A stretch of 56,650 bases of DNA from assembly GCF_002973595.1 (NCBI RefSeq), contig NZ_PVEO01000013.1:1-56650 (forward strand), read 5' to 3'. This document shows, piece by piece, positions 46,461 through 56,650 of this stretch. Position 1 is the first letter of the stretch. Every line of letters starts with the position of its first letter. The stretch is from Jejuia pallidilutea (GTDB taxonomy: Bacteria; Bacteroidota; Bacteroidia; Flavobacteriales; Flavobacteriaceae). The notes under the pieces were generated by a model that saw only the letters and a program-made list of their open reading frames with translations, had not been told where the DNA came from and ran no database searches. Both the position numbers and the translations under genes were made by a program.

Positions 46461-47510
46461 ATGAAATTTTTTAGCACCCTCTCACTTTTAGCATTGGTTG
46501 GCACTTGCGCCACTCCAAAATACACCGCAAGAATAGAAAATTTAAAAACTAGTATAACACTTGTAGATACCAGTTTAGTTAAAAAATATTCTGAAACTAT
46601 TACCGCCAAAGAATTAACCAAACACCTTTACGAGTTTGCCTCAAAAGAATTTGAAGGCAGAAAGGTAGGAGAGCCAGGACAAAAAAAAGCTGCCAATTAT
46701 TTAAAATCGTTTTATGTAAACCAAGATATAAAGTCTCCTTTAGGAGGCAATAACTACTTTCAAGGTATCTCTAAAATTTATTTGTCTGAAGATACACCGT
46801 CTTCAGAAAATGTACTCGCATTTATTGAAGGTGCAGAAAAACCCGAGGAAGTACTAGTTATATCTGCCCACTTAGACCATCTTGGTGTAGAAGATGGCAA
46901 TATTTATTATGGTGCAGACGATGATGGCTCTGGCACCGTAGCTGTAATGGAAATTGCCGAAGCTTTTAAAACAGCAGTATTAAACGGTCATCCGCCCAAA
47001 AGGAGTATTATGTTTACACACTTTACCGCCGAAGAAATTGGAAAACGCGGCTCTGAATTTTATGTAAAACAACCCGTTTTTCCATTAGAAAATACAATAG
47101 CTAACCTAAATATAGATATGATTGGACGTGTGGACGACAGGCACACAAATAACAAAAACTATATTTACCTAATAGGCTCTGATAGATTGAGTAAAGAACT
47201 GCACTACATCTCAGAAAAAGTGCGAGACACTTATGTAAATCTAGAATTAGACTATAAGTATAACGCATTAAAAGATATTAACCAATACTATTCCAGATCA
47301 GACCATTACAATTTTGCAAAACACGATATTCCTGTAATTTTCTATTTTAATGGCGAACATGAAGATTACCATAAACACACCGATACGCCCGATAAAATAG
47401 ACTATAATTTATTAGAAAAACGAACAAGATTAATATTTGCTACTGCATGGCAATTGGCAAATCAGGAAAAGCGTGTGGCGATTGATGAAAATAGCGTATT
47501 TTTAAACTAA
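46461..47510 (+). CDS. M28 family metallopeptidase lipoprotein, copy 1
   Basis: A 349-residue aminopeptidase-like protein with a lipoprotein-type start (LALVGTCATP). Two-zinc ligands can be placed: SAHLDHLG, GADDDGSGT, the catalytic Glu pair in FTAEEIG, NIDMIGR, and the late His in RSDHYNFAKH. It should cut N-terminal residues from peptides in the envelope. The paralogue starts 25 bp downstream. Confidence 0.9.
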   Translation: MKFFSTLSLLALVGTCATPKYTARIENLKTSITLVDTSLVKKYSETITAKELTKHLYEFASKEFEGRKVGEPGQKKAANYLKSFYVNQDIKSPLGGNNYFQGISKIYLSEDTPSSENVLAFIEGAEKPEEVLVISAHLDHLGVEDGNIYYGADDDGSGTVAVMEIAEAFKTAVLNGHPPKRSIMFTHFTAEEIGKRGSEFYVKQPVFPLENTIANLNIDMIGRVDDRHTNNKNYIYLIGSDRLSKELHYISEKVRDTYVNLELDYKYNALKDINQYYSRSDHYNFAKHDIPVIFYFNGEHEDYHKHTDTPDKIDYNLLEKRTRLIFATAWQLANQEKRVAIDENSVFLN

Positions 47511-47534: not shown

Positions 47535-48545
47535 ATGAAACAAATAGGCCTATTACTAATAGTCTTTATAGCACTATGTAGCTGTAGTAATTCCCAAAAC
47601 AAAAAAAACCAAAATACAGCAAACCCAGAAACCTATGCCAACACCATTACTGCCAACGAGTTAAAAGACATGCTTTACACCTATGCCTCTAATGATTTTG
47701 AAGGCAGAAAAACCGGTGAAGCTGGCCAGAAAAAAGCAATACATTTTATTAAGGACCACTACATAAACAATAACATACCCTCGCCTATTGCCACAGGCGA
47801 CTATTTTCAAGAAATACCAGTGGAATATTTTAAAGGAAGAGCCAGTAATGCTTCAGAAAACGTTATTGCTTACATAAAAGGTTCAGAAAAACCAGATGAA
47901 GTTATTGTTATTTCTGCACATTTGGATCACATAGGCATTTCCAGCACAGGAGAGGTTAACAATGGCGCCGACGATGATGGCTCTGGCACTGTGGGTATTT
48001 TGGAAATTGCAGAGGCTTTTAAAGCTGCTGAAAAAGATGGGTTTGCACCAAAACGCACCATAGTTTTCTTGCATGTTACAGGCGAAGAAATAGGACTATT
48101 TGGCTCTAAATATTACACAGACGAAGACCCTATTTTTCCGCTAGAACATACCGTAGCCAATTTAAATATTGATATGATAGGGCGCGTAGACGAAAAGCAT
48201 GAAGGCCAACCCAACTATTTATATTTAATAGGCTCAGACAGGTTGAGCACAGAATTACATACCGTTTCAGATTCTATAAATAAAGCTACAGTAAACCTAG
48301 AACTAGATTACACCTTTAATGATGAAAACGACCCCAATAGATTTTATTACAGGTCCGACCATTACAACTTTGCAAAGCATAACATTCCAGTAATATTTTA
48401 TTTTAATGGCACACATGCCGATTACCACAAACCAAGCGATACACCAGATAAAATTAACTACCCATTTTTAGAAACCCGTACACGCTTAATTTTTTATACA
48501 GCTTGGGAATTGGCAAACCGCGAAGAACGACTAAAAGTAGATTAA
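47535..48545 (+). CDS. M28 family metallopeptidase lipoprotein, copy 2
   Basis: A 336-residue paralogue of the preceding gene, with lipobox ALCSCSN. The same zinc ligands are kept: SAHLDHIG, GADDDGSGT, HVTGEEIG (the segment before EE differs), NIDMIGR and RSDHYNFAKH. The pair looks like a tandem duplication. It is the last ordinary chromosomal gene before the cassette-like array, whose first box begins 62 bp after its stop. Confidence 0.9.
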   Translation: MKQIGLLLIVFIALCSCSNSQNKKNQNTANPETYANTITANELKDMLYTYASNDFEGRKTGEAGQKKAIHFIKDHYINNNIPSPIATGDYFQEIPVEYFKGRASNASENVIAYIKGSEKPDEVIVISAHLDHIGISSTGEVNNGADDDGSGTVGILEIAEAFKAAEKDGFAPKRTIVFLHVTGEEIGLFGSKYYTDEDPIFPLEHTVANLNIDMIGRVDEKHEGQPNYLYLIGSDRLSTELHTVSDSINKATVNLELDYTFNDENDPNRFYYRSDHYNFAKHNIPVIFYFNGTHADYHKPSDTPDKINYPFLETRTRLIFYTAWELANREERLKVD

Positions 48546-48607
48546 AAAACCAGTGTTATCCTTCTCGTTTGGAATGTTATTTTAAATTGAATTATTTTTA
48601 TAAACTA

Positions 48608-49071
48608 GTTATGCGCAAGTTAAAAAAGCAACAAAACCTGCATCGGACTTTTAGGATTCATCTAGAAATTAAAGCGTCGGATTTGATAACATCGTAACTG
48701 ATTTTTAAGACATCTGACTTAAAAAAAATAAAAACGCGGACTTTCAGCTTTGCCCAAAGCTAGTTTAAATATCAAAAATTAAGCATTGCCAAAAGTTCGT
48801 TCTGATTAAAAAAAAAGTCAAAAAAAGGCCCTAATGAAAATTGTGGGTTTTTCACTAAAATTGTTGAATATAAACAGCGGATAATTAAAATTTTGAATAA
48901 TACGTCGGATTATGAATATAACGTTAAAAACAATAAAAAACCTGCGCATAACAATGTATAAAAATAATTGCTATTTTTAGACTAAACTAAGGTAATAGCA
49001 CGTTTGTTCGCTTCTGATTTTCCTTCGGAAAATCCTCGCGCACACAAACGCAACTATTATTATACGCGAAC
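48608..49071 (+). other. Cassette 0, apparently non-coding
   Basis: The unit starts GTTATGCGCA (48608-48617) and its own end is TGCGCATAAC (48943-48952), an exact 10-base reverse complement. In between I see no convincing gene; an ATG at 48611 opens only 28 codons (MRKLKKQQNLHRTF...), beginning inside the box itself. A 7-bp hairpin agctttg/caaagct lies at 48746-48761. The left border has no palindromic partner, so it could be an attI-like or decayed site. Confidence 0.65.
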
Positions 49072-49080
49072 GTTAGCCAC
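48943..49080 (+). repeat. attC-like palindromic site 1 (end of cassette 0)
   Basis: The site is 138 bp. Outer boxes are TGCGCATAAC and GTTAGCCAC. Stem arms GTATAAAAATAATTGC (48956-48971) and GCAACTATTATTATAC (49050-49065) pair at 14 of 16 positions. Inner elements include cgtttgt/acaaacg and a perfect 8-bp hairpin gattttcc/ggaaaatc at 49016-49034. Confidence 0.8.
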
Positions 49081-49100
49081 AAGCTGAAAAAAACAACAGA

Positions 49101-51830
49101 ATGACAAAAAAAGAAAGAGGGTCGGAATGGAGAATATGGGATTTACATATTCATACACCTGAATCAATATGTCAGGAATACAAAAACACACCAGAAAATT
49201 GGGAAAAGTTCATTAATTGTTTAGAGAACTTACCTAAAGAAGTCAAGGTTATTGGAATAACTGATTATTATTTCATAGACGGTTATGAAAAAGTAATGGG
49301 ATTCAAGGCTAAAGGCAGACTTGCGAATATTGACAAAATCTTTCCAATACTAGAATTTAGAATTGACACTTTTGGAAGTGGAAATGAAAACAAACTTCAA
49401 AAAATTAATCTACATATATTATTTGATGTTGATGAATCAAATTTATCAAACGAAATAAAAAAAATTAGAGAAGAGTTTATTGACAACATTAAAATTTCGA
49501 AACTCGAAGCTCACAAAACAAAAAAGCTATCAAAAGAAAATTTTAGTGAAATTGGTGGCACTTTAAAAGATGGTTTTGAATCTTTAATTCCTTCCACTGA
49601 GGAAGTTCTAGAACTTGTAAATTCAACTGCTTGGAAAGACAAAACATTCCTTTTCCTTGGTTATAAAGAATGGAGTAATCTCGAAAAAAACCAGCAATTA
49701 AAGCCTCTTAAAGACCATTTATATTCTCAAGTAAAAGCATTTTTTAGCAATAACGTAGCAACGAATGAAAAAAATCAAAATTGGCTTAATGAATTTGGTA
49801 AGAAAAGATTACTTCATTCTCTAGATATTCATTCTTTTCAGAGCTTAGACACGTACGAGTTCAATGAAGATGGAAGTAAAAAACCATCAGAAAACTACCA
49901 TTGTCATACTTGGATAAAAGCAGACCCGACTTTTAATGGAATTAAACAAATTGGTTACGAACCAGATGAACGAGTATCAATTGAACAAATCAAACCTCAA
50001 GAAAAAGCAGGTTATCAAGCAATAGATTCTGTTACTATTACTCATAGCGATTTTACAAATCAAACTTTGTATTTCAACCAAAACCTAAACTGTATCATCG
50101 GTGGTAGGTCTACAGGAAAATCAGTTTTGTTAGGAGCTATAGCTAAAAAGTTGAATTGCGATAAACCTGTGAAATTTGGCAATCAAGAGTACACTGATTT
50201 TGTTAATGCAATAGTATCCGGAATGTCGATAACTTGGAAAGATGGAGTTGAAAATAATGACAGGAATATCGAATACTTCCCTCAAAGTTATATGTATCAA
50301 TTAGCTAAAAATAAAGGTGGCGAATTAGATAATTTGGTAGAGGAAATAATAAAGCAGGATGCAACGAAAAACCAACTAATTACTAACTATGAATCATTTT
50401 CAAGTGAAAACAACTCTGATATAACAGCAAAAATAAATAAGTTATTTCAGTTACAAGAGGAACTTGTAAAACGCAGAATCAAACTGAAGGAAAAAGGAGA
50501 TGAAAAAGGGATTAAAGCCGAAATTGAGAAATTAACAAAGGAACTGTCTGAGTTAAAATTAAAGATTCAAATCACAGAGAAAGAATTAGAGGATTACAAT
50601 AAACTTAAACTAGAATTTGAAGAACTCTTAAAAGTAAATGAAAATCTTAGATCGCAAGTATCAAAAATTCAATCTTTAAAGGAGAAATTCTTTATAAATA
50701 AAGATATTGATTTTGATATTGTCTCTTTGAGCGATTCAAATAGATTTGAGGTTAAATCTTCTTTTGAAAAACTTAAAAATAAGTTTCAAGATGAATGGGA
50801 TTCAGAGTTGGACAAAATTTCACAGAAAAATGTTGCTACTCTAAAAGCAAATAGTCAAAAACTGTTAGAAATTGAAAAGAATGCGAGTTACATCAAAGGA
50901 ATTGAAACCTTCAAGAATAATAAGCATTACAAAGAAACAGAACAAAAACTTAAAGTTCAAAGAGACAAACTTGCTGATATTACATTAATCAAAAAAGAGA
51001 TAGAGGAGTTTTTGTTACAAATAAATAGTTTCAAAACCTCAATTATACAAGCACATAGAAACTTCTACAACAAAATCGAAGAAATAAAGGAGAAGTTAAA
51101 TATTTCGGAAGGAAAATTAGAAATAATCGCCTTTCCAAAGCTAAAATCATTTGAATTTAGGGAGCTTTTAAATTGGAGCGTGAACCAACAAAGCGACCAA
51201 GGAAAAAAAATTGTAAATACCACATTTGATATAAATGTTGAACAATATTTTAAGCTAACTACCGAGATTTTTGAAAAACTTTTGAATCAATCTCTAACAC
51301 TAAAAGGTGGGAACTCACATTTAGGTTTAGCCTTAAAATTAATGTCTACAAATTTCTTTGACATTTCCTACGATATACGCTATGATGATACATTTAATCA
51401 AATGTCGGAAGGTAAAAAAGCATTTGTAGTTTTAATGCTGTTATTGGACTTTAGCGACAAAGATTGTCCTATACTAATTGACCAGCCCGAAGATGATTTA
51501 GATAATCGTGCGATTTACAAAGAGTTAGTTAAGTACCTCAAAAAGAAGAAAAAGGAAAGACAAATAATAGTCGTAACTCATAACCCTAATATCGTTGTTG
51601 GTGCTGACTCTGAACAAGTAATTGTCGCAAATCAAAATGGAGTTGACACAAAAAACAGAAATGGAGCTAAATTCCAGTATGTTTCGGGCAGTTTAGAAAA
51701 CTCAAAAGAAACTGATGAAGGAATTGAAATAATTTTGGAAAGACAAGGAATAAAAGAGCACGTTTGTGAAATCCTAGAAGGTGGAAACGAAGCTTTCAAA
51801 CAACGTGAAATAAAATACGATTTGAAATAA
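49101..51830 (+). CDS. PHP-domain SMC-like ATPase (TrlF-like), cassette A
   Basis: A 909-residue protein. The N-terminus has a PHP-type phosphoesterase start (WDLHIHTPES) and continues to about 300 (LLHSLDIHSF, YHCHTWIKADPTF). An SMC/ABC-type ATPase follows: Walker A GGRSTGKS at 334-341, a long charged coiled coil at about 420-690, a signature MSEGKKAF at 768, Walker B ILIDQPEDDLDN at about 791-802, and H-loop VVTHNPN near 825. It resembles proteins labelled TrlF-family ATPases and, more widely, nuclease-ATPase fusions of phage-defence islands; a defence role is inference. It is the only large gene in the forward cassettes. Its ATG is 29 bp after the cassette start. Confidence 0.85.
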   Translation: MTKKERGSEWRIWDLHIHTPESICQEYKNTPENWEKFINCLENLPKEVKVIGITDYYFIDGYEKVMGFKAKGRLANIDKIFPILEFRIDTFGSGNENKLQKINLHILFDVDESNLSNEIKKIREEFIDNIKISKLEAHKTKKLSKENFSEIGGTLKDGFESLIPSTEEVLELVNSTAWKDKTFLFLGYKEWSNLEKNQQLKPLKDHLYSQVKAFFSNNVATNEKNQNWLNEFGKKRLLHSLDIHSFQSLDTYEFNEDGSKKPSENYHCHTWIKADPTFNGIKQIGYEPDERVSIEQIKPQEKAGYQAIDSVTITHSDFTNQTLYFNQNLNCIIGGRSTGKSVLLGAIAKKLNCDKPVKFGNQEYTDFVNAIVSGMSITWKDGVENNDRNIEYFPQSYMYQLAKNKGGELDNLVEEIIKQDATKNQLITNYESFSSENNSDITAKINKLFQLQEELVKRRIKLKEKGDEKGIKAEIEKLTKELSELKLKIQITEKELEDYNKLKLEFEELLKVNENLRSQVSKIQSLKEKFFINKDIDFDIVSLSDSNRFEVKSSFEKLKNKFQDEWDSELDKISQKNVATLKANSQKLLEIEKNASYIKGIETFKNNKHYKETEQKLKVQRDKLADITLIKKEIEEFLLQINSFKTSIIQAHRNFYNKIEEIKEKLNISEGKLEIIAFPKLKSFEFRELLNWSVNQQSDQGKKIVNTTFDINVEQYFKLTTEIFEKLLNQSLTLKGGNSHLGLALKLMSTNFFDISYDIRYDDTFNQMSEGKKAFVVLMLLLDFSDKDCPILIDQPEDDLDNRAIYKELVKYLKKKKKERQIIVVTHNPNIVVGADSEQVIVANQNGVDTKNRNGAKFQYVSGSLENSKETDEGIEIILERQGIKEHVCEILEGGNEAFKQREIKYDLK

Positions 51831-51835
51831 AGCCA

Positions 51836-51971
51836 GTGGCTAACAACGTATATAAAAAATAGCAGTTTTAGTGCTTAAACTAAAGATAAATAATAAAACA
51901 AAGGTCAGTTATAAACCGAAAAGTTAGTGCTTACAACCTGCTACTTTTCATATACAAGACCGTTGTAGCCA
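51836..51971 (+). repeat. attC-like palindromic site 2 (end of cassette A)
   Basis: The site is 136 bp. Outer boxes are GTGGCTAAC and GTTGTAGCCA. Stem arms GTATATAAAAAATAGCAG (51848-51865) and CTGCTACTTTTCATATAC (51938-51955) pair at 16 of 18 positions. The left box is the reverse complement of cassette A's own start, GTTAGCCAC (49072-49080). Confidence 0.85.
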
Positions 51972-51984
51972 ATTTGAAGACAGC

Positions 51985-52488
51985 ATGAAACAGCTATTAG
52001 TTTTAATGACCTTATTTAGCCTAAATTCATTTGGTCAAAAGAAAGACCTATTTCAACAAATGATACAAGGTTGCCTTTCAGATTCAACGTTCAAATACAC
52101 CGTGCTTCATGACCCTAACCATAAATGTATCGACAGTCCTGCTTATAATATCCCCTATAGACCAGTCAACTATTCAGGCGACTTAGAGTTTGATTTAACT
52201 TTTAACGGAGCATCTCTGGAAGAACATAATTATAGCGATTCAACAAAGTGTTCTCCATTTCAGATTTCCTTTCTTCAAAAATCAAAGTCACGCTACGAAG
52301 TATCGGTGAGCTATATTGTTTTCCTACCGCTATCATGTGAACACCTTGAAGGACATGGAAAAAATCATGGGTGCTTCAGTAAAAAAGTAATTTCTATGAG
52401 CCGAAAAATCAAAATCAAAAGAAATGGAGACTGGAAAATCAAGGATACTCAATACGGTAACCAAATTATGACAGGGACTTATCTTTGA
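51985..52488 (+). CDS. Small secreted protein, cassette B
   Basis: A 167-residue protein with a signal peptide (MKQLLVLMTLFSLNSFGQ). The mature part has five cysteines (in GCLSDS, HKCIDS, TKCSPF, LSCEHL, GCFSKK), suggesting a disulphide-bonded beta-rich domain. I do not recognise a family. The ATG is 23 bp after the cassette start; no promoter is evident, so it may rely on upstream transcription. Confidence 0.75.
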   Translation: MKQLLVLMTLFSLNSFGQKKDLFQQMIQGCLSDSTFKYTVLHDPNHKCIDSPAYNIPYRPVNYSGDLEFDLTFNGASLEEHNYSDSTKCSPFQISFLQKSKSRYEVSVSYIVFLPLSCEHLEGHGKNHGCFSKKVISMSRKIKIKRNGDWKIKDTQYGNQIMTGTYL

Positions 52489-52511
52489 AACAACCGACAA
52501 AAAATAAAAAC

Positions 52512-52647
52512 TGGCTACAACAAAAAATAAACGCAATGCGGCTTTAATCCTGCTTTTAAAGGGCATCACGGCAGACAGAGAAACATTTTGTTATTTTACA
52601 AAACCGAGGACGAAGCCGCACTGCGCTTATTTGAACCGTTGTAACCA
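52512..52647 (+). repeat. attC-like palindromic site 3 (end of cassette B)
   Basis: The site is 136 bp. Outer boxes are TGGCTACAAC and GTTGTAACCA. Stem arms AAATAAACGCAATGCGGC (52525-52542) and GCCGCACTGCGCTTATTT (52615-52632) pair at 16 of 18 positions. The left box is the exact reverse complement of cassette B's start, GTTGTAGCCA (51962-51971). Confidence 0.87.
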
Positions 52648-52657
52648 ATTTCAGAAA

Positions 52658-53542
52658 ATGAGAGTAATCACATTAATATTTGGATTTTTGATTTCCCTAA
52701 ATATGTTTGGAAATGAACAATTAGGAAAAATCAATGACCCTGACGGTTATACCAATGTTAGAGAAAAGCCAACGACTAAATCTAAAGTTCTTTTTAAGAT
52801 TTTGGATACTGAATACTTTTATTACGAAAGTTCAGAAATTGAAAATTGGTGTAGAGTTACGAATATGAATGGGCGTTCTGGATTTATGCACCAATCCAGA
52901 ATAGAAAATTTGAGCGAATTCACTATAAACGGAAAAACCTATCAATCGAATGAATCAAAACTAAAAGTGAGGTCTAAAAAGATTGGTAACACTGAAATAA
53001 AAATATCTCAAATAAAGAATCCTAAATCATATTGTGACGCTTACATTGAAATCACTTCGGATAAAACTAAAAAGTTCAAATATGAATTTATAGAAGCTCT
53101 TGGTGGTTCAGCTGGAATTGCTTTTTTGGAAAATGTAGTACCTAATCATATTTTAATTGTCAAACACGGAGATTATGATGGAAGAACTATTATTGTTAGC
53201 AAAAATGGACAAATAACAGAAGTTGCTGGAGGTTCAGTATCTGAATTAATTGACAACAAATACCTTATAAACTTAGCTGAGTGTGATATTGGCTATTGTG
53301 GCTTCTCAATCTATGATATTCTTCAAGAAAAAATAGTATTCAACTATGAGACTGAATTTGAATTATATCAGTTCAAAGACCAAATAATTTTTGATTTGGA
53401 TTATGACAATGGAAAAGACTACCATTTATTTGACTTTGACAACAAAGAGTTTAAAAAATTAGAAATTAAAGAAAACATAGAAAACAACTACTTCAAGAAG
53501 ACCATTAATTATGAACTTGAAAATGGTTGTTTATGTTATTAA
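52658..53542 (+). CDS. Exported SH3-domain protein, cassette C
   Basis: A 294-residue protein. A frame opens at a TTG (52631), inside the palindrome, but the ATG at 52658 gives a proper signal peptide (MRVITLIFGFLISLNMFG). A bacterial SH3 domain follows at about 25-90 (DPDGYTNVREKPTTKSKVL, WCRVTNMNGRSGFMHQSRI). The remaining 200 residues form beta-rich repeats with no recognised family. Such SH3 modules often bind cell-wall peptides. The ATG is 20 bp after the cassette start. Confidence 0.78.
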   Translation: MRVITLIFGFLISLNMFGNEQLGKINDPDGYTNVREKPTTKSKVLFKILDTEYFYYESSEIENWCRVTNMNGRSGFMHQSRIENLSEFTINGKTYQSNESKLKVRSKKIGNTEIKISQIKNPKSYCDAYIEITSDKTKKFKYEFIEALGGSAGIAFLENVVPNHILIVKHGDYDGRTIIVSKNGQITEVAGGSVSELIDNKYLINLAECDIGYCGFSIYDILQEKIVFNYETEFELYQFKDQIIFDLDYDNGKDYHLFDFDNKEFKKLEIKENIENNYFKKTINYELENGCLCY

Positions 53543-53548
53543 AAAAAC

Positions 53549-53685
53549 TGGTTACAACAATGGCTATAAGTAATTGCTTGTTCTCGCCTACTTCTGAAAA
53601 TCCTCATGGATTTTCAGTTTGGTGTGTACTTGCAAAGTTAATCGCTAAACCACGCAACTACTCATAGCCGAGACCGTTGTGCATA
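53549..53685 (+). repeat. attC-like palindromic site 4 (end of cassette C)
   Basis: The site is 137 bp. Outer boxes are TGGTTACAAC and GTTGTGCATA. Stem arms GGCTATAAGTAATTGC (53562-53577) and GCAACTACTCATAGCC (53654-53669) pair at 14 of 16 positions. A hairpin ctgaaaatcc/ggattttcag lies at 53593-53617. The left box is the exact reverse complement of cassette C's start, GTTGTAACCA (52638-52647). Confidence 0.87.
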
Positions 53686-53803
53686 ATTAAAAAACTCAGT
53701 GATTCTTGAACTAATTTAATAGAATTCCCTATCATTTTCTCATTAAGAATTACTGCATATTTAAATAAATTATTATGCTGATTTTTTTTTAATACTTAAT
53801 ATA

Positions 53804-55504
53804 TTAATTTTTCATAATCTTAACAATTTGGGTTCCAATTTCTGTATCAATCTTCACGAAATAAACTCCACGATTTAAATCGGATACTGAATATTTATCT
53901 TGAGACGACTCGAATTCTTTTACTAAATTTCCTAAAATTGAGTATATTTTTACTTTATTAATAATCAATTCCGTTTTTATATTAAAATATAAATTAGCTG
54001 GATTTGGAAATAATTTGAACCTTATCGCCTCATAATTCTCAACAGATAATTGCCCACAATTATCTATTATTTCTTGGCGATTATTACACCCTACTGCATT
54101 ATTACGTAATGTATAGCTCAAATTTGGGTCACTAAATAAATTGCAAAAACTATTTACAGAACAAAATGATAAATTAGGGCTAGAAGTTATTGTCACTCGT
54201 CCCATGGTTGTATAATCAATATTATCCATTCCATTCAAACTTGAGAGGCTGTCCATATCGTACTGAATTGTTATTGTACCATTGTTCAGATTAGTTAAGC
54301 TTTCAAGACCTTTGAAATCCACAAGTTTTTCGCAAAAATCAATATAGAGACTACCTATTGATGTTAAATTATCCAAACCAGTAAAATCTACTAAAGAAGA
54401 ACTGGTTACTGCAAATTCACCAGTAATCGTCTCAAGATTTTCTAAACCAACAAAATTAAGTAAGGAATCATTGCTAGCCAAATGAACATTTCCAATTGTA
54501 ATTAAATTATCCAACCCTTTAAAATTTGTTAATGGTGTACCCCAAAAATTAAACAATCTTGATATCTCACTTAGGTTATTGAGCCCTTCTAAATCTTCTA
54601 ATGAATTATTTCCATTGATTCTTAAAGTGAGTACATTTGTTAAACCTTCAAGGCCTTCCATATTTAATAAAGCATTATTTCGAGCAATTTCAAATGTATG
54701 ATAATACAAAGTTCCTACCGAGGATAGGCTATTCATCCCACTAAAATTTTTCAATCCGTCATTATGTTGAACTGAAAATGATTCATGAACTCTCTCAAGA
54801 CTACCCAGACCTACCATGCTCATCAACACTTGATTATTACTAATATTTGCTTCTCCATATATATTAGTTAAGCTGTCAAACCCTGTAAAATTAACCAAAG
54901 ATGAATTACTTGAAATATTAAAATCTCCTGATATGGTTGTCAGTTTACCAATGCCCTTAAAATCAACCAGTGAGCTGTTATTGGTTATTTTAATATCGCC
55001 TCCAATGGAGTCCAAATTGTTAAACCCATAAAAATGGGTAAGATTTTCATTATTTATTATTTCTAAACTCCCTCCAATATTAATAAGTGAATTTAAACCC
55101 GCAATACTAGAAAAAGTTACATTATCAATAATAATACTATTCCCAAGACTATCCAAAGCATCTAACCCTTCTAAACTTAATAGACTAGTATTATCTTCAA
55201 TTTCAAGTGATTGACCTATTGTTTTTAAATTATTCAATCCGTTTAAATTAGTAATACTATTACTATTTAAAATTAAATCTCCTTGAATTGATTCAATTTG
55301 CGATAATCCTTGTAAATTGTTTATTGAATTACCGCTGATTGTTATAGAACCTAATATTTCAGTACATTCAGGATAATTAGTATTGAAATTATCTATCTGA
55401 CTTTGCATATAAAATGTAATTCCAGACGATAAACAATTTTGGGCGTTAGAATTTATATTTAAAAGGAATAAGTAAAAAATAAAAAAAGAAATTATTTGCT
55501 TCAA
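53804..55504 (-). CDS. T9SS-exported leucine-rich-repeat protein, reversed gene of cassette D
   Basis: A 566-residue protein: signal peptide (IISFFIFYLFLLNINSNAQ), about 16 short repeats of the form GLxxLxxIxGxLxIxxN resembling receptor-L/LRR surface repeats, a Cys-rich cap near 440-480, and a type A T9SS sorting tail (FKLFPNPANLYFNI, VYFVKIDTEIGTQIVKIMKN). The start that keeps the signal peptide is a TTG at 55504; no ATG is available. It is the only gene in the array on the opposite strand, so it must carry its own promoter in 55505-55749, where I see no clear TAnnTTTG. A T9SS cargo gene inside a cassette is unusual. Confidence 0.82.
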   Translation of the reverse strand: MKQIISFFIFYLFLLNINSNAQNCLSSGITFYMQSQIDNFNTNYPECTEILGSITISGNSINNLQGLSQIESIQGDLILNSNSITNLNGLNNLKTIGQSLEIEDNTSLLSLEGLDALDSLGNSIIIDNVTFSSIAGLNSLINIGGSLEIINNENLTHFYGFNNLDSIGGDIKITNNSSLVDFKGIGKLTTISGDFNISSNSSLVNFTGFDSLTNIYGEANISNNQVLMSMVGLGSLERVHESFSVQHNDGLKNFSGMNSLSSVGTLYYHTFEIARNNALLNMEGLEGLTNVLTLRINGNNSLEDLEGLNNLSEISRLFNFWGTPLTNFKGLDNLITIGNVHLASNDSLLNFVGLENLETITGEFAVTSSSLVDFTGLDNLTSIGSLYIDFCEKLVDFKGLESLTNLNNGTITIQYDMDSLSSLNGMDNIDYTTMGRVTITSSPNLSFCSVNSFCNLFSDPNLSYTLRNNAVGCNNRQEIIDNCGQLSVENYEAIRFKLFPNPANLYFNIKTELIINKVKIYSILGNLVKEFESSQDKYSVSDLNRGVYFVKIDTEIGTQIVKIMKN

Positions 55505-55749
55505 AATTATTATGATTAAATTAAAAGTAATAATACGAAAATTTAATCAAATCTGAGTAGATTACTATTAAAATGATTTAGTTGTCAACTTTCATAAAAT
55601 TTTATAAGAACCTTTTAAATAAAGCGAGTATGATAAATTATTTCTAATTTAAAGAGTTTTCTAATCAAGAATGATTCGTGAAAATATTGCGTTATTGAAT
55701 TAACTCTTTAATGAAAATCTTTTAATTGTCTTTTGGTTTCAGAAAAAAC
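55505..55749. other. Upstream region of the reversed cassette gene
   Basis: This is AT-rich, with no gene. It should hold the promoter of the leftward LRR gene. No good promoter match is found by eye. Confidence 0.4.
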
Positions 55750-55884
55750 TATGCACAACAAAGTGTATGGTTTATTGCTATTCATTGCTAAATCAAAGTT
55801 AAGTCGTTTTAAATTGAGTTATTGCTAAACTGAAAATTCATACATTTATATTCGCAACAAGCCATACACAGAACGTTGTACATA
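55750..55884 (+). repeat. attC-like palindromic site 5 (end of cassette D)
   Basis: The site is 135 bp. Outer boxes are TATGCACAAC and GTTGTACATA. Stem arms GTGTATGGTTTATTGC (55763-55778) and GCAACAAGCCATACAC (55854-55869) pair at 14 of 16 positions. The left box is the exact reverse complement of cassette D's start, GTTGTGCATA (53676-53685), although the gene inside points the other way. Confidence 0.87.
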
Positions 55885-55887
55885 ATT

Positions 55888-56505
55888 ATGAGCCAAACCA
55901 TTGAAATTTTTGATGTTAGAGAAAATTTGCCCAATAATTTTCTGAGCTTAAAATATCTACCATTTTATAAAACCGGAAAATGGAATAAACTATGGAATTT
56001 TATTAATGATGTAAAAATTGATAATCCACAAACTATTATTATTCAGAATATAAACGAATTGAGAAATAGAAATCCTAAACTATCTGAAAAAATAGAAGAC
56101 TTGGTTATTCTATATAACCATAAAAATAAAGGTAATTTTAGTATAATCTACGATTACTTTGATGAATTAAAAACAGACTCAATAAGTGATTTATTCAATG
56201 ATAGACCAGGACAATATGGATTTCGTGGAGACATTGAATTATGGGAAGATTTAATCGAGTATTTTAAAAACACTAAACTGCCAAAAACGGAATTAGAATT
56301 AGAACAATTAATACATGATGCGATAAAAAAATTAACAGGAACACCAATAGAAGAACATGATTATAATTCAATTTTTGTAGAAAAATATAATAAAGGTGGA
56401 ATGTCTGGAGGTGTTGTTAGTACAAAGTTTTGGTTATATAAAGGAATTCCTATATTAATAGGAAGATATAAAAGAATAACTATGTACAACAAAGAACTGA
56501 GGTAA
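55888..56505 (+). CDS. Hypothetical protein, cassette E
   Basis: A 205-residue protein, no signal peptide. A TTG at 55876 lies in the box; the ATG at 55888, 13 bp after the cassette start, is preferred. It has a charged, helical N-terminal part and a C-terminal segment YNKGGMSGGVVSTKFWLYKG that looks like a conserved core, but I do not recognise a family. The frame runs through the cassette's own end box (56481-56490) and stops only at 56503-56505, so the last residues (TMYNKELR) are probably coded by site and insertion sequence; the original stop has likely been lost. Confidence 0.7.
   Translation: MSQTIEIFDVRENLPNNFLSLKYLPFYKTGKWNKLWNFINDVKIDNPQTIIIQNINELRNRNPKLSEKIEDLVILYNHKNKGNFSIIYDYFDELKTDSISDLFNDRPGQYGFRGDIELWEDLIEYFKNTKLPKTELELEQLIHDAIKKLTGTPIEEHDYNSIFVEKYNKGGMSGGVVSTKFWLYKGIPILIGRYKRITMYNKELR
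56481..56494 (+). repeat. Truncated attC-like site 6 (end of cassette E)
   Basis: TATGTACAAC (56481-56490) is the exact reverse complement of cassette E's start GTTGTACATA (55875-55884). It is followed by AAAG, as in site 5 (AAAGTGTATGG), and then diverges. No right arm follows; IS110-type sequence begins. Confidence 0.75.
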
Positions 56506-56520
56506 AAAACAAGTAAACTA

Positions 56521-56650
56521 TTACTTATTTATTACTAAAGAGCTTCTGTAATCTGCATCGTATGGCAATCTATTTTTTACAACTGCAAATGCTTGTTTTA
56601 ATAACTTGTTGCACACTGCAATAAGAGCTAGTTTTTTGCTTTTGCCCTTG
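56521..56650 (-). CDS. IS110-family transposase, C-terminal part (5' end outside window)
   Basis: Reading leftward, the last 43 codons give KGKSKKLALIAVCNKLLKQ and AFAVVKNRLPYDADYRSS and end LVINK at a TAA (56521-56523). This matches the C-terminal end of the Transposase_20 domain of IS110-family (IS110/IS1111) transposases. Only 15 bp separate its stop from the stop of the cassette E gene, so the element's end lies in the site. Some IS1111-type elements insert specifically into attC sites, which fits its place here. Confidence 0.8.
   Translation of the reverse strand, partial: KGKSKKLALIAVCNKLLKQAFAVVKNRLPYDADYRSSLVINK

Follow-up and report, generated by a model that had tools for sequence, protein, structure and literature searches.

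A probable array of integron-type gene cassettes in Jejuia pallidilutea, and a tyrosine recombinase without the IntI insert

The stretch of DNA analysed here, referred to as the window, comprises positions 1 to 56,650 (56,650 nt) of contig C13 from the 4.11-Mb draft genome of the flavobacterium Jejuia pallidilutea. From position 48608 to the end of the contig, which falls inside an insertion sequence (IS) at 56650, the window carries an array of six units resembling the gene cassettes of integrons. Five complete spacers (sites 1 to 5, at 48943–49081, 51835–51971, 52512–52647, 53549–53685 and 55750–55884) lie between unrelated genes, and a sixth is interrupted by the IS. The complete spacers measure 135–139 nt including their 10-nt boxes, with 115–119 nt from AAC to GTT. 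All five share one plan: a box ending in AAC and three bases precede a hairpin, whose matching arms of about 16 pairs flank a variable centre, and five to six bases ending in C lead on to GTT. In the four forward genes, the ATG (49101, 51985, 52658 and 55888) lies 13–29 bp past the GTT (49072, 51962, 52638 and 55875). The original prediction, made from the sequence alone, had described such spacers of 135–138 bp and the same start distances; our measurements agree with both, apart from the slightly wider size range.

Two tandem genes for M28 peptidases (46461–47510 and 47535–48545, plus strand; open reading frames (ORFs) matching PF04389 with 136 and 141 bits) are the last chromosomal genes before the array. 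They are followed by an attI-like leader (48546–48607, plus strand) with the motif GTTATCCTTCTC at 48555, the first base of which lies 53 bp ahead of the GTT that opens the first cassette. All cassettes and sites are given on the plus strand. Cassette 1 (48608–49071; site 1) is devoid of an ORF, unit 1 (48608–48952) containing no open frame of more than 49 codons. Cassette 2 (49072–51961; site 2) encodes a TrlF-family AAA-like ATPase of 909 aa (ORF 49101–51830; NF045780, 533 bits at a cut-off of 350). Cassette 3 (51962–52637; site 3) holds an ORF for 167 aa (51985–52488) with no family match in the scans made, and the ORF of cassette 4 (52638–53675; site 4; ORF 52658–53542) encodes a protein with an SH3-like N-terminus (PF08239, 26 bits, just under the cut-off of 27). 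The gene of cassette 5 (53676–55874; site 5) is reversed (53804–55504, minus strand) and encodes a protein of the leucine-rich-repeat type with a type IX secretion system (T9SS) sorting tail (PF01030, PF18962, TIGR04183). In cassette 6 (55875–56493), the ORF (55888–56505) extends into the IS, and the left box of the sixth site occupies 56481–56490. The left end of this IS110-family element (56494–56650, minus strand) interrupts site 6 about three bases past its AAC.

The boxes at the two ends of each unit belong together. In the window, the start and end boxes of units 1 to 6 match over 10, 9, 10, 10, 10 and 10 contiguous bases, compared with 4–9 of 10 bases in common for box pairings that do not form a unit. 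A terminal box pairs with the start box of its own unit and not with the opposite end of its own site. The recombination site of an integron cassette is complete only in the circular form, and pairing within the unit is therefore the rule expected of a circularising integron cassette. Of 51 neighbouring site pairs examined in this genome, 36 were in register, with a mean match of 6.31 out of 7 variable positions, and 33 of the 36 matched at 6 or 7 positions. Boxes of the same site matched at only 2.83 positions (n = 46), and 10,000 shuffles gave a mean of 3.06 and a maximum of 4.06. The same pattern was observed at 35 loci from relatives, where 136 units from 144 neighbouring pairs had a mean match of 6.10 (115/136 at 6 or 7), a same-site match of 2.52 (n = 176), and shuffles (5,000) with a mean of 2.55 and a maximum of 3.04. 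The complementarity spans 9–10 bases. Base 11 is a fixed mismatch (A at the unit start in 136/136, C at the unit end in 113/136), and the three bases after it match in 85–90%. As in integrons, the R'' box at the end of a cassette is complementary to the R' box at its start, and the cassette boundaries can be read from this pairing.

The sites are palindromic intergenic repeats and each unit has inverted ends, as would also be the case for dispersed palindromes, such as repetitive extragenic palindromic (REP) sequences, bacterial interspersed mosaic elements (BIMEs) or terminators, and for small transposons with terminal repeats. However, boxes that vary between units yet match within each unit fit neither terminators nor an invariable terminal repeat, and the terminator/REP or transposon reading was rejected on this rule. 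The confinement of the sites to one side and one strand of a recombinase gene (131/131) and the common direction of 112 out of 115 genes, both described below, likewise oppose this explanation, which we consider extremely unlikely.

The bottom strands of sites 1 to 5 fold with z-scores of -2.7, -3.4, -5.9, -4.2 and -1.7, and 1, 0, 0, 1 and 13 of 200 shuffles, respectively, fold equally well. Site 5 is thus weak when taken alone. A covariance model (R1) constructed from sites 1, 2, 4 and 5 recovered the held-out site 3 in a scan of the window at 41.8 bits. In the whole genome, for which 150 of 5112 candidates were scored, R1 yielded 75 matches at E ≤ 1 and 66 at E < 0.005. Two of the 75 are repeats of a site on its opposite strand, and the genome holds about 70 sites. 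Site 3 is absent from the genome-wide matches, perhaps because only this fraction of the candidates was scored. The majority of matches lie in arrays, several of which fill entire small contigs. In an alignment of 62 sites, which was fitted to the model and is therefore biased towards its hairpin, 96.3% of the hairpin cells were paired compared with 82.1% in shuffles, and 165 double changes were counted compared with 48.6; none of 500 shuffles reached 165. Alongside the 137-nt sites there is a longer class, with a centre extended by about 65 nt (C18:5339–5534; about 200 nt in relatives).

The arms of the inner stem are equal in length in 44/62 sites of this genome and 91/129 sites of relatives, with no extrahelical base visible, and unequal by one base, never by more, in 18/62 and 38/129; since these alignments were fitted to the model as well, equal arms might conceal opposite bulges. 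Canonical attC sites carry two extrahelical bases on one side of the folded bottom strand, whereas about 70% of the sites described here have none. The bottom strand contains G·T wobbles at fixed positions, at one pair in 61/61 sites here and 126/129 in relatives, at another in 48/62 and 106/129, and beside the box in 57/61 and 122/128, all of which become A·C mismatches in the top strand. According to predicted energies, the bottom strand is the more stable one in 59/62 sites here and 109/126 in relatives, so that the sites share with attC a hairpin with a favoured bottom strand. We infer that the choice of strand probably rests on the conserved G·T wobbles and not on two extrahelical bases. 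The boxes also depart from the canonical RYYYAAC/GTTRRRY: GTTRRRY fits 9/136, and GTTR fits 134/136.

A 375-aa tyrosine recombinase is encoded at the start of another contig, C11. Behind its stop codon we found GTTATCCTTCCC, with the GTT of a possible cassette 53 bp from the first base of the motif. The pattern GTTATCCTTCYC-N3-T has two matches in 4.1 Mb, one in the window leader and one behind the C11 recombinase gene, both 53 bp from GTT. The attI-like leader thus occurs twice in the genome (L016:95–148, minus strand, and window 48546–48607), once without a recombinase gene. The latter, in the window, is a candidate for a copy or for the remnant of a second platform.

From 575 recombinase loci found in total, we analysed the 80 best, named ones. 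They contain 131 sites at E ≤ 0.01 in 45 loci, all of them downstream of the recombinase gene and on one strand. These sites lie in 312 kb of downstream sequence, whereas 708 kb upstream of the recombinase genes contained none at the same threshold. In 25 of the 80 loci, the contig ends within 1 kb after the gene, and 43 of the other 55 have a site. At the stricter threshold of E < 1e-4, sites were present within 1.5 kb of the recombinase gene in 21 of the 30 best loci of the family. The attI-like motif ATA(T)AA-n-GTT was found downstream of the gene in 51/80 loci, upstream in 3/80 and on the other strand in 2/80; shuffles gave a mean of 3.35 and a maximum of 9. An attI beside the recombinase gene, with GTT as the insertion point, is accordingly present as a sequence motif. 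The sequence TANNTTTG, presumably a promoter motif, occurs in 15 of the 51 attI-like regions in forward and in 2 in reverse orientation, which is suggestive of a cassette promoter. Twenty further loci encode less similar recombinases. Fifteen of them have sites, with the array 3' of the gene in nine and 5' in six cases, and in the five without sites the contig stops less than 1 kb from the gene on one side. The second group, with the array at the 5' side (L261, L264, L265, L266, L268 and L270), comprises recombinases of 272–376 aa and the same kind of sites. At L257:118–3410, seven weak sites (27–40 bits) and a strong one are crowded within 3.3 kb beside the gene for a 282-aa recombinase; these are possibly very short cassettes with a divergent site.

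The residues R, K, H, R, H and Y, which we take to be the catalytic ones, are invariant in 26/26 aligned proteins. The spacing from the catalytic R to the HxxR motif is 91 residues in 43 of 46 such proteins and 92 in two, the remaining one being a pattern artefact. For comparison, it is 133 in two canonical IntI proteins (the pattern matched 2 of 19) and 98 in XerD. The array-linked recombinase does not possess the extra domain specific to IntI. The best match of the genome to TIGR02249 reached 201.6 bits at a cut-off of 265, in two pieces, and 62 residues of the IntI4 structure (PDB 2A3V) face 19 profile positions of the recombinase; the recombinase therefore lacks the part assumed to contain the alpha-I2 helix. 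Its core is most similar to archaeal XerA-type proteins (PDB 4A8E and 5HXY; 215 and 214 bits). The N-terminal domain was predicted with a pLDDT of 89.0. A Foldseek search with this domain gave an archaeal XPB helicase as the top hit (E 0.15), followed by YciH and, lower, the SMARCAL1 HARP domain, none of them significant, and the structure comparison of the whole model scarcely covered it.

Could XerC/XerD or a different recombinase move the cassettes, with the linked gene as a passenger? Nine tyrosine recombinase matches were found in the genome, including an XerD above the cut-off (334.9 bits) and a best-match XerC (299.6 bits on the XerC model, under the cut-off), and some genomes have sites without a recombinase carrying the N-terminal domain (N-domain). 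The linked protein itself is neither XerC nor XerD by the curated cut-offs (171.5 of 329.6 bits for XerD, 165.4 of 335.15 for XerC). The 12-kb stretches around the genes for XerD, XerC and one further recombinase of this genome contain no site at E ≤ 0.01, however, and XerC/XerD were rejected as neighbours of the arrays for this reason. The linked gene has also retained the catalytic residues, and arrays begin beside it in many genera. We regard the passenger explanation as very unlikely.

Sites at E ≤ 1e-4 were detected in 175 of 199 Flavobacteriaceae genomes, a set with close to one genome for each genus; no more than 16 candidates were scored in any genome. In a draw of 296 genomes from the phylum, 75 have sites at E ≤ 1e-5 and 51 have the N-domain, with 28 having both (odds ratio 5.1, P 6e-7). 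Canonical IntI scored above the cut-off in 85 of the 296. This number, the general plan of the sites and the listing of Bacteroidota or the Bacteroidetes/Chlorobi group as integron hosts in the accessible parts of reviews would fit ordinary attC sites of a canonical integron or of a cluster of attC sites lacking an integron integrase (CALIN), acted on by a canonical IntI encoded at another place in the genome or in neighbours. None of the 30 Flavobacteriaceae genomes in the phylum draw has canonical IntI above the cut-off, however, while 18 of them have sites and 20 the N-domain. Furthermore, no site at E ≤ 1 was found near 20 canonical IntI genes, of which about 1.5 kb on each side was covered, and sites are present in 17/76 genomes with canonical IntI alone, 30/169 with neither, 24/42 with the N-domain recombinase alone and 4/9 with both. 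The low TIGR02249 score in J. pallidilutea and the rarity of GTTRRRY point in the same direction. Canonical IntI as the enzyme was rejected, being largely refuted by the family-model search of this genome and the 296 phylum genomes, and ordinary attC sites served by it appear very improbable to us.

In the accessible part of PMC9024848, Salinibacter ruber M1 is the only member of Bacteroidetes proper credited with a complete integron, cassette-less integrases having been found earlier. Canonical IntI in other families and classes of our phylum draw (85/296) is commoner than the single Bacteroidetes integron in that part suggests. According to the accessible part of PMC10013915, IntegronFinder run on one Tenacibaculum reported no integrons. 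A description of arrays of the present kind in Flavobacteriaceae was not found in the literature under open licence, a scope outside which preprints and most subscription papers fall.

The surroundings of the window array were compared with those in five relatives, namely a member of the same genus and the four whose recombinases are most similar. All five have homologues of the peptidase genes, the second of which is conserved, and in all five the DNA homology breaks off no more than 2 bp from the stop codon at 48545. The next 9.5–10.7 kb in these relatives contain neither a site at E ≤ 0.1 nor a homologue of the window cassette genes. Thus, the array at 48608 is an insertion and not a fixed block. 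Copies of the ORF-less cassette 1, 91–97% identical to that in the window, are present on C24, on C25 and at the end of C18. The homology between the window and C18 starts exactly at GTT, and that of the other two copies starts 6–8 bp earlier. In the C18 array, one cassette of 700 bp occurs twice (98.2% identity). A cassette carrying a gene of the cation-efflux type is common to three genera (L111:11035, L105:4593 and L109:3229), with DNA identities of 84–86.5%. Its homology begins 1–2 bp before GTT in two of three pairs and 24 bp before GTT in the third, and ends inside the site. In one copy the start box differs and the end box is altered in step, and the three copies carry three different sites, which is suggestive of selection for pairing of the two ends and of an exchange of sites among genes. 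For recombinase-catalysed excision and insertion, the evidence consists of these traces: duplicated cassettes, cross-genus cassettes and insertion relative to the relatives. Read from the sequences, they document mobility over evolutionary time.

In relatives, 122 of 136 units hold an ORF of at least 60 aa. Among 115 cassette ORFs of at least 80 aa, 112 are oriented forward, and the median distance between GTT and the start codon is 29.5 bp; the arrays thus consist of tandem cassettes in one orientation, each with a gene and an attC-like site. A Pfam scan of 73 cassette ORFs from relatives matched 65 families. Among the 25 of these that were listed, cation efflux was found three times, once for each copy of the shared cassette, and cytosine methylases twice; a restriction enzyme, AbiTii, nSTAND3, superoxide dismutase and a Gp49-type protein each occurred once. 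The TrlF-family ATPase gene of cassette 2 (49101–51830) has partial PADLOC matches to Ppl, LmuB and GajA and is possibly a defence gene.

The sixth site is not the only one disrupted by an IS. The 41-aa transposase end in the window had no naming match in Pfam or PHROGs, and in a plasmid search it was up to 73% identical to annotated IS110 transposases. The left end of the element occurs at the same position of sites in the window and on C22, C24 and C1, and its right end on C24, C14, C19 and C16. IS110 insertions were thus seen at four sites from the left and at four from the right. They lie about three bases past AAC, all oriented alike with respect to the site, and the contigs of the assembly break at them.

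We conclude that 48608–56490 very probably represents six integron-type cassettes behind an attI-like site, which would be moved via the folded bottom strand by a recombinase of the XerA/IntI kind that lacks the IntI insert. Each cassette would consist of GTT, a gene and an attC-like site. Upon circularisation, the GTT box at the start would meet the AAC box at the end and complete the hairpin site. In predictions, the bottom strand of this site folds better than the top strand. The recombinase, here the 375-aa protein encoded on C11, would cut at GTT and join the folded site either to the attI-like site next to the gene that encodes it or to further sites of this kind. Joining at a folded site would cause the cassettes to enter in one orientation. 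The roles of the linked recombinase as the enzyme, of the folded bottom strand as its substrate and of the wobbles are deduced from these sequence patterns and are put forward conditionally.

Several observations weigh against this conclusion. The window array has no recombinase gene of its own and, because the gene lies elsewhere (C11), may be described as CALIN-like with an attI-like head, but its sites depart from the canonical definition and the contig stops at 56650. Nine of the 30 best recombinase loci are without a site at E < 1e-4 and 35 of the 80 without one at E ≤ 0.01; 23 of these 35 have less than 1 kb of contig after the gene, and 12 have more. One weak model match (23 bits, E 0.011), taken as false, lies inside the recombinase gene of this genome. 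Box matching is limited to 5 or fewer of 7 positions in 3/36 in-register pairs here and 21/136 units in relatives, and 15 of the 51 pairs in this genome were out of register and left uncounted. SOS boxes, the Bacteroidetes forms of which were taken from the accessible part of PMC8565304, are rare in the 150 bp upstream of the recombinase gene (GGA-N5-TCC in 2/80, CTAA-N5-TTAG in 1/80). In the phylum draw, sites are present in 47/245 genomes without the N-domain, compared with 28/51 with it, and the 30 genomes with sites among the 169 with neither N-domain nor canonical IntI count against a strict pairing. At least two genomes of this class (G001 and G157) have array-linked recombinases outside the reach of the N-domain model, so that part of the mismatch is explained by recombinases which the model misses.

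The integron-like array of the original prediction is nevertheless supported by the plan of the sites, the box logic, the attI-like leader, the linked recombinase, the direction of the genes, the duplicated and cross-genus cassettes and the absence from five relatives. Neither a conserved block with fixed gene order nor random matches of the model, the two outcomes named there as refuting it, was encountered, and the covariance-model search it had proposed gave the site numbers reported above. Its notes on the deviating boxes and on the missing description in Flavobacteriaceae agree with our results. The integron reading holds in kind, for the plan and the cassette logic, but the recombinase and the site differ from canonical IntI and attC. 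On the sequence evidence available, the array appears to work like an integron. Because the IntI insert and the canonical site are both absent, it should not simply be filed as a member of the IntI/attC class and is better regarded as a new kind of variant.

The title of a 2001 paper by Messier and Roy, cited in PMC2426708, calls the extra domain of IntI unique and necessary for activity. In the accessible part of PMC9024848, this domain is the feature by which IntI is told from other integrases. If recombinases without the insert run arrays, the essentials of folded single-strand recombination can be separated from lineage-specific traits, and the need for the extra domain becomes directly testable. 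In addition, most of the Flavobacteriaceae genera examined would have an added pool for gene exchange. A more general proposal, for which we see the case as evenly balanced, is that integrons are not one recombinase lineage. Several insert-less lineages of the XerA/IntI type in Bacteroidota would run arrays, with the gene pointing towards the array or, in other lineages, away from it, and the strand being marked by wobble pairs in place of extrahelical bases. On this view the canonical insert would be one possible solution rather than a necessity, and searches that rely on it and on canonical sites would have overlooked a large pool of integrons in Flavobacteriaceae.

Among known systems, the IS1111-attC elements resemble the IS110 insertions described here in that they insert repeatedly at one spot of cassette sites, but both the IS and the kind of site are different. 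The archaeal XerA-type recombinases (PDB 4A8E and 5HXY), known for dif-type chromosome sites, provide the closest core sequence matches but are not known to serve cassette arrays. IntI4 (PDB 2A3V) differs by the region taken to hold the alpha-I2 helix, which our recombinase lacks. The sedentary chromosomal integrons of the Vibrio and Xanthomonas type share one hairpin site per gene, an attI-like site beside a tyrosine recombinase gene, a mostly uniform orientation, ORF-less cassettes and mostly unknown or accessory genes. In contrast to these integrons, the recombinase described here has no IntI insert and often an extra N-terminal domain, the boxes consist of GTTR and free bases with 9–10 bp of pairing, the spacer has 3 instead of 5–6 bases, the sites are mostly without extrahelical bases in the inner stem, and the recombinase gene often points towards the array.

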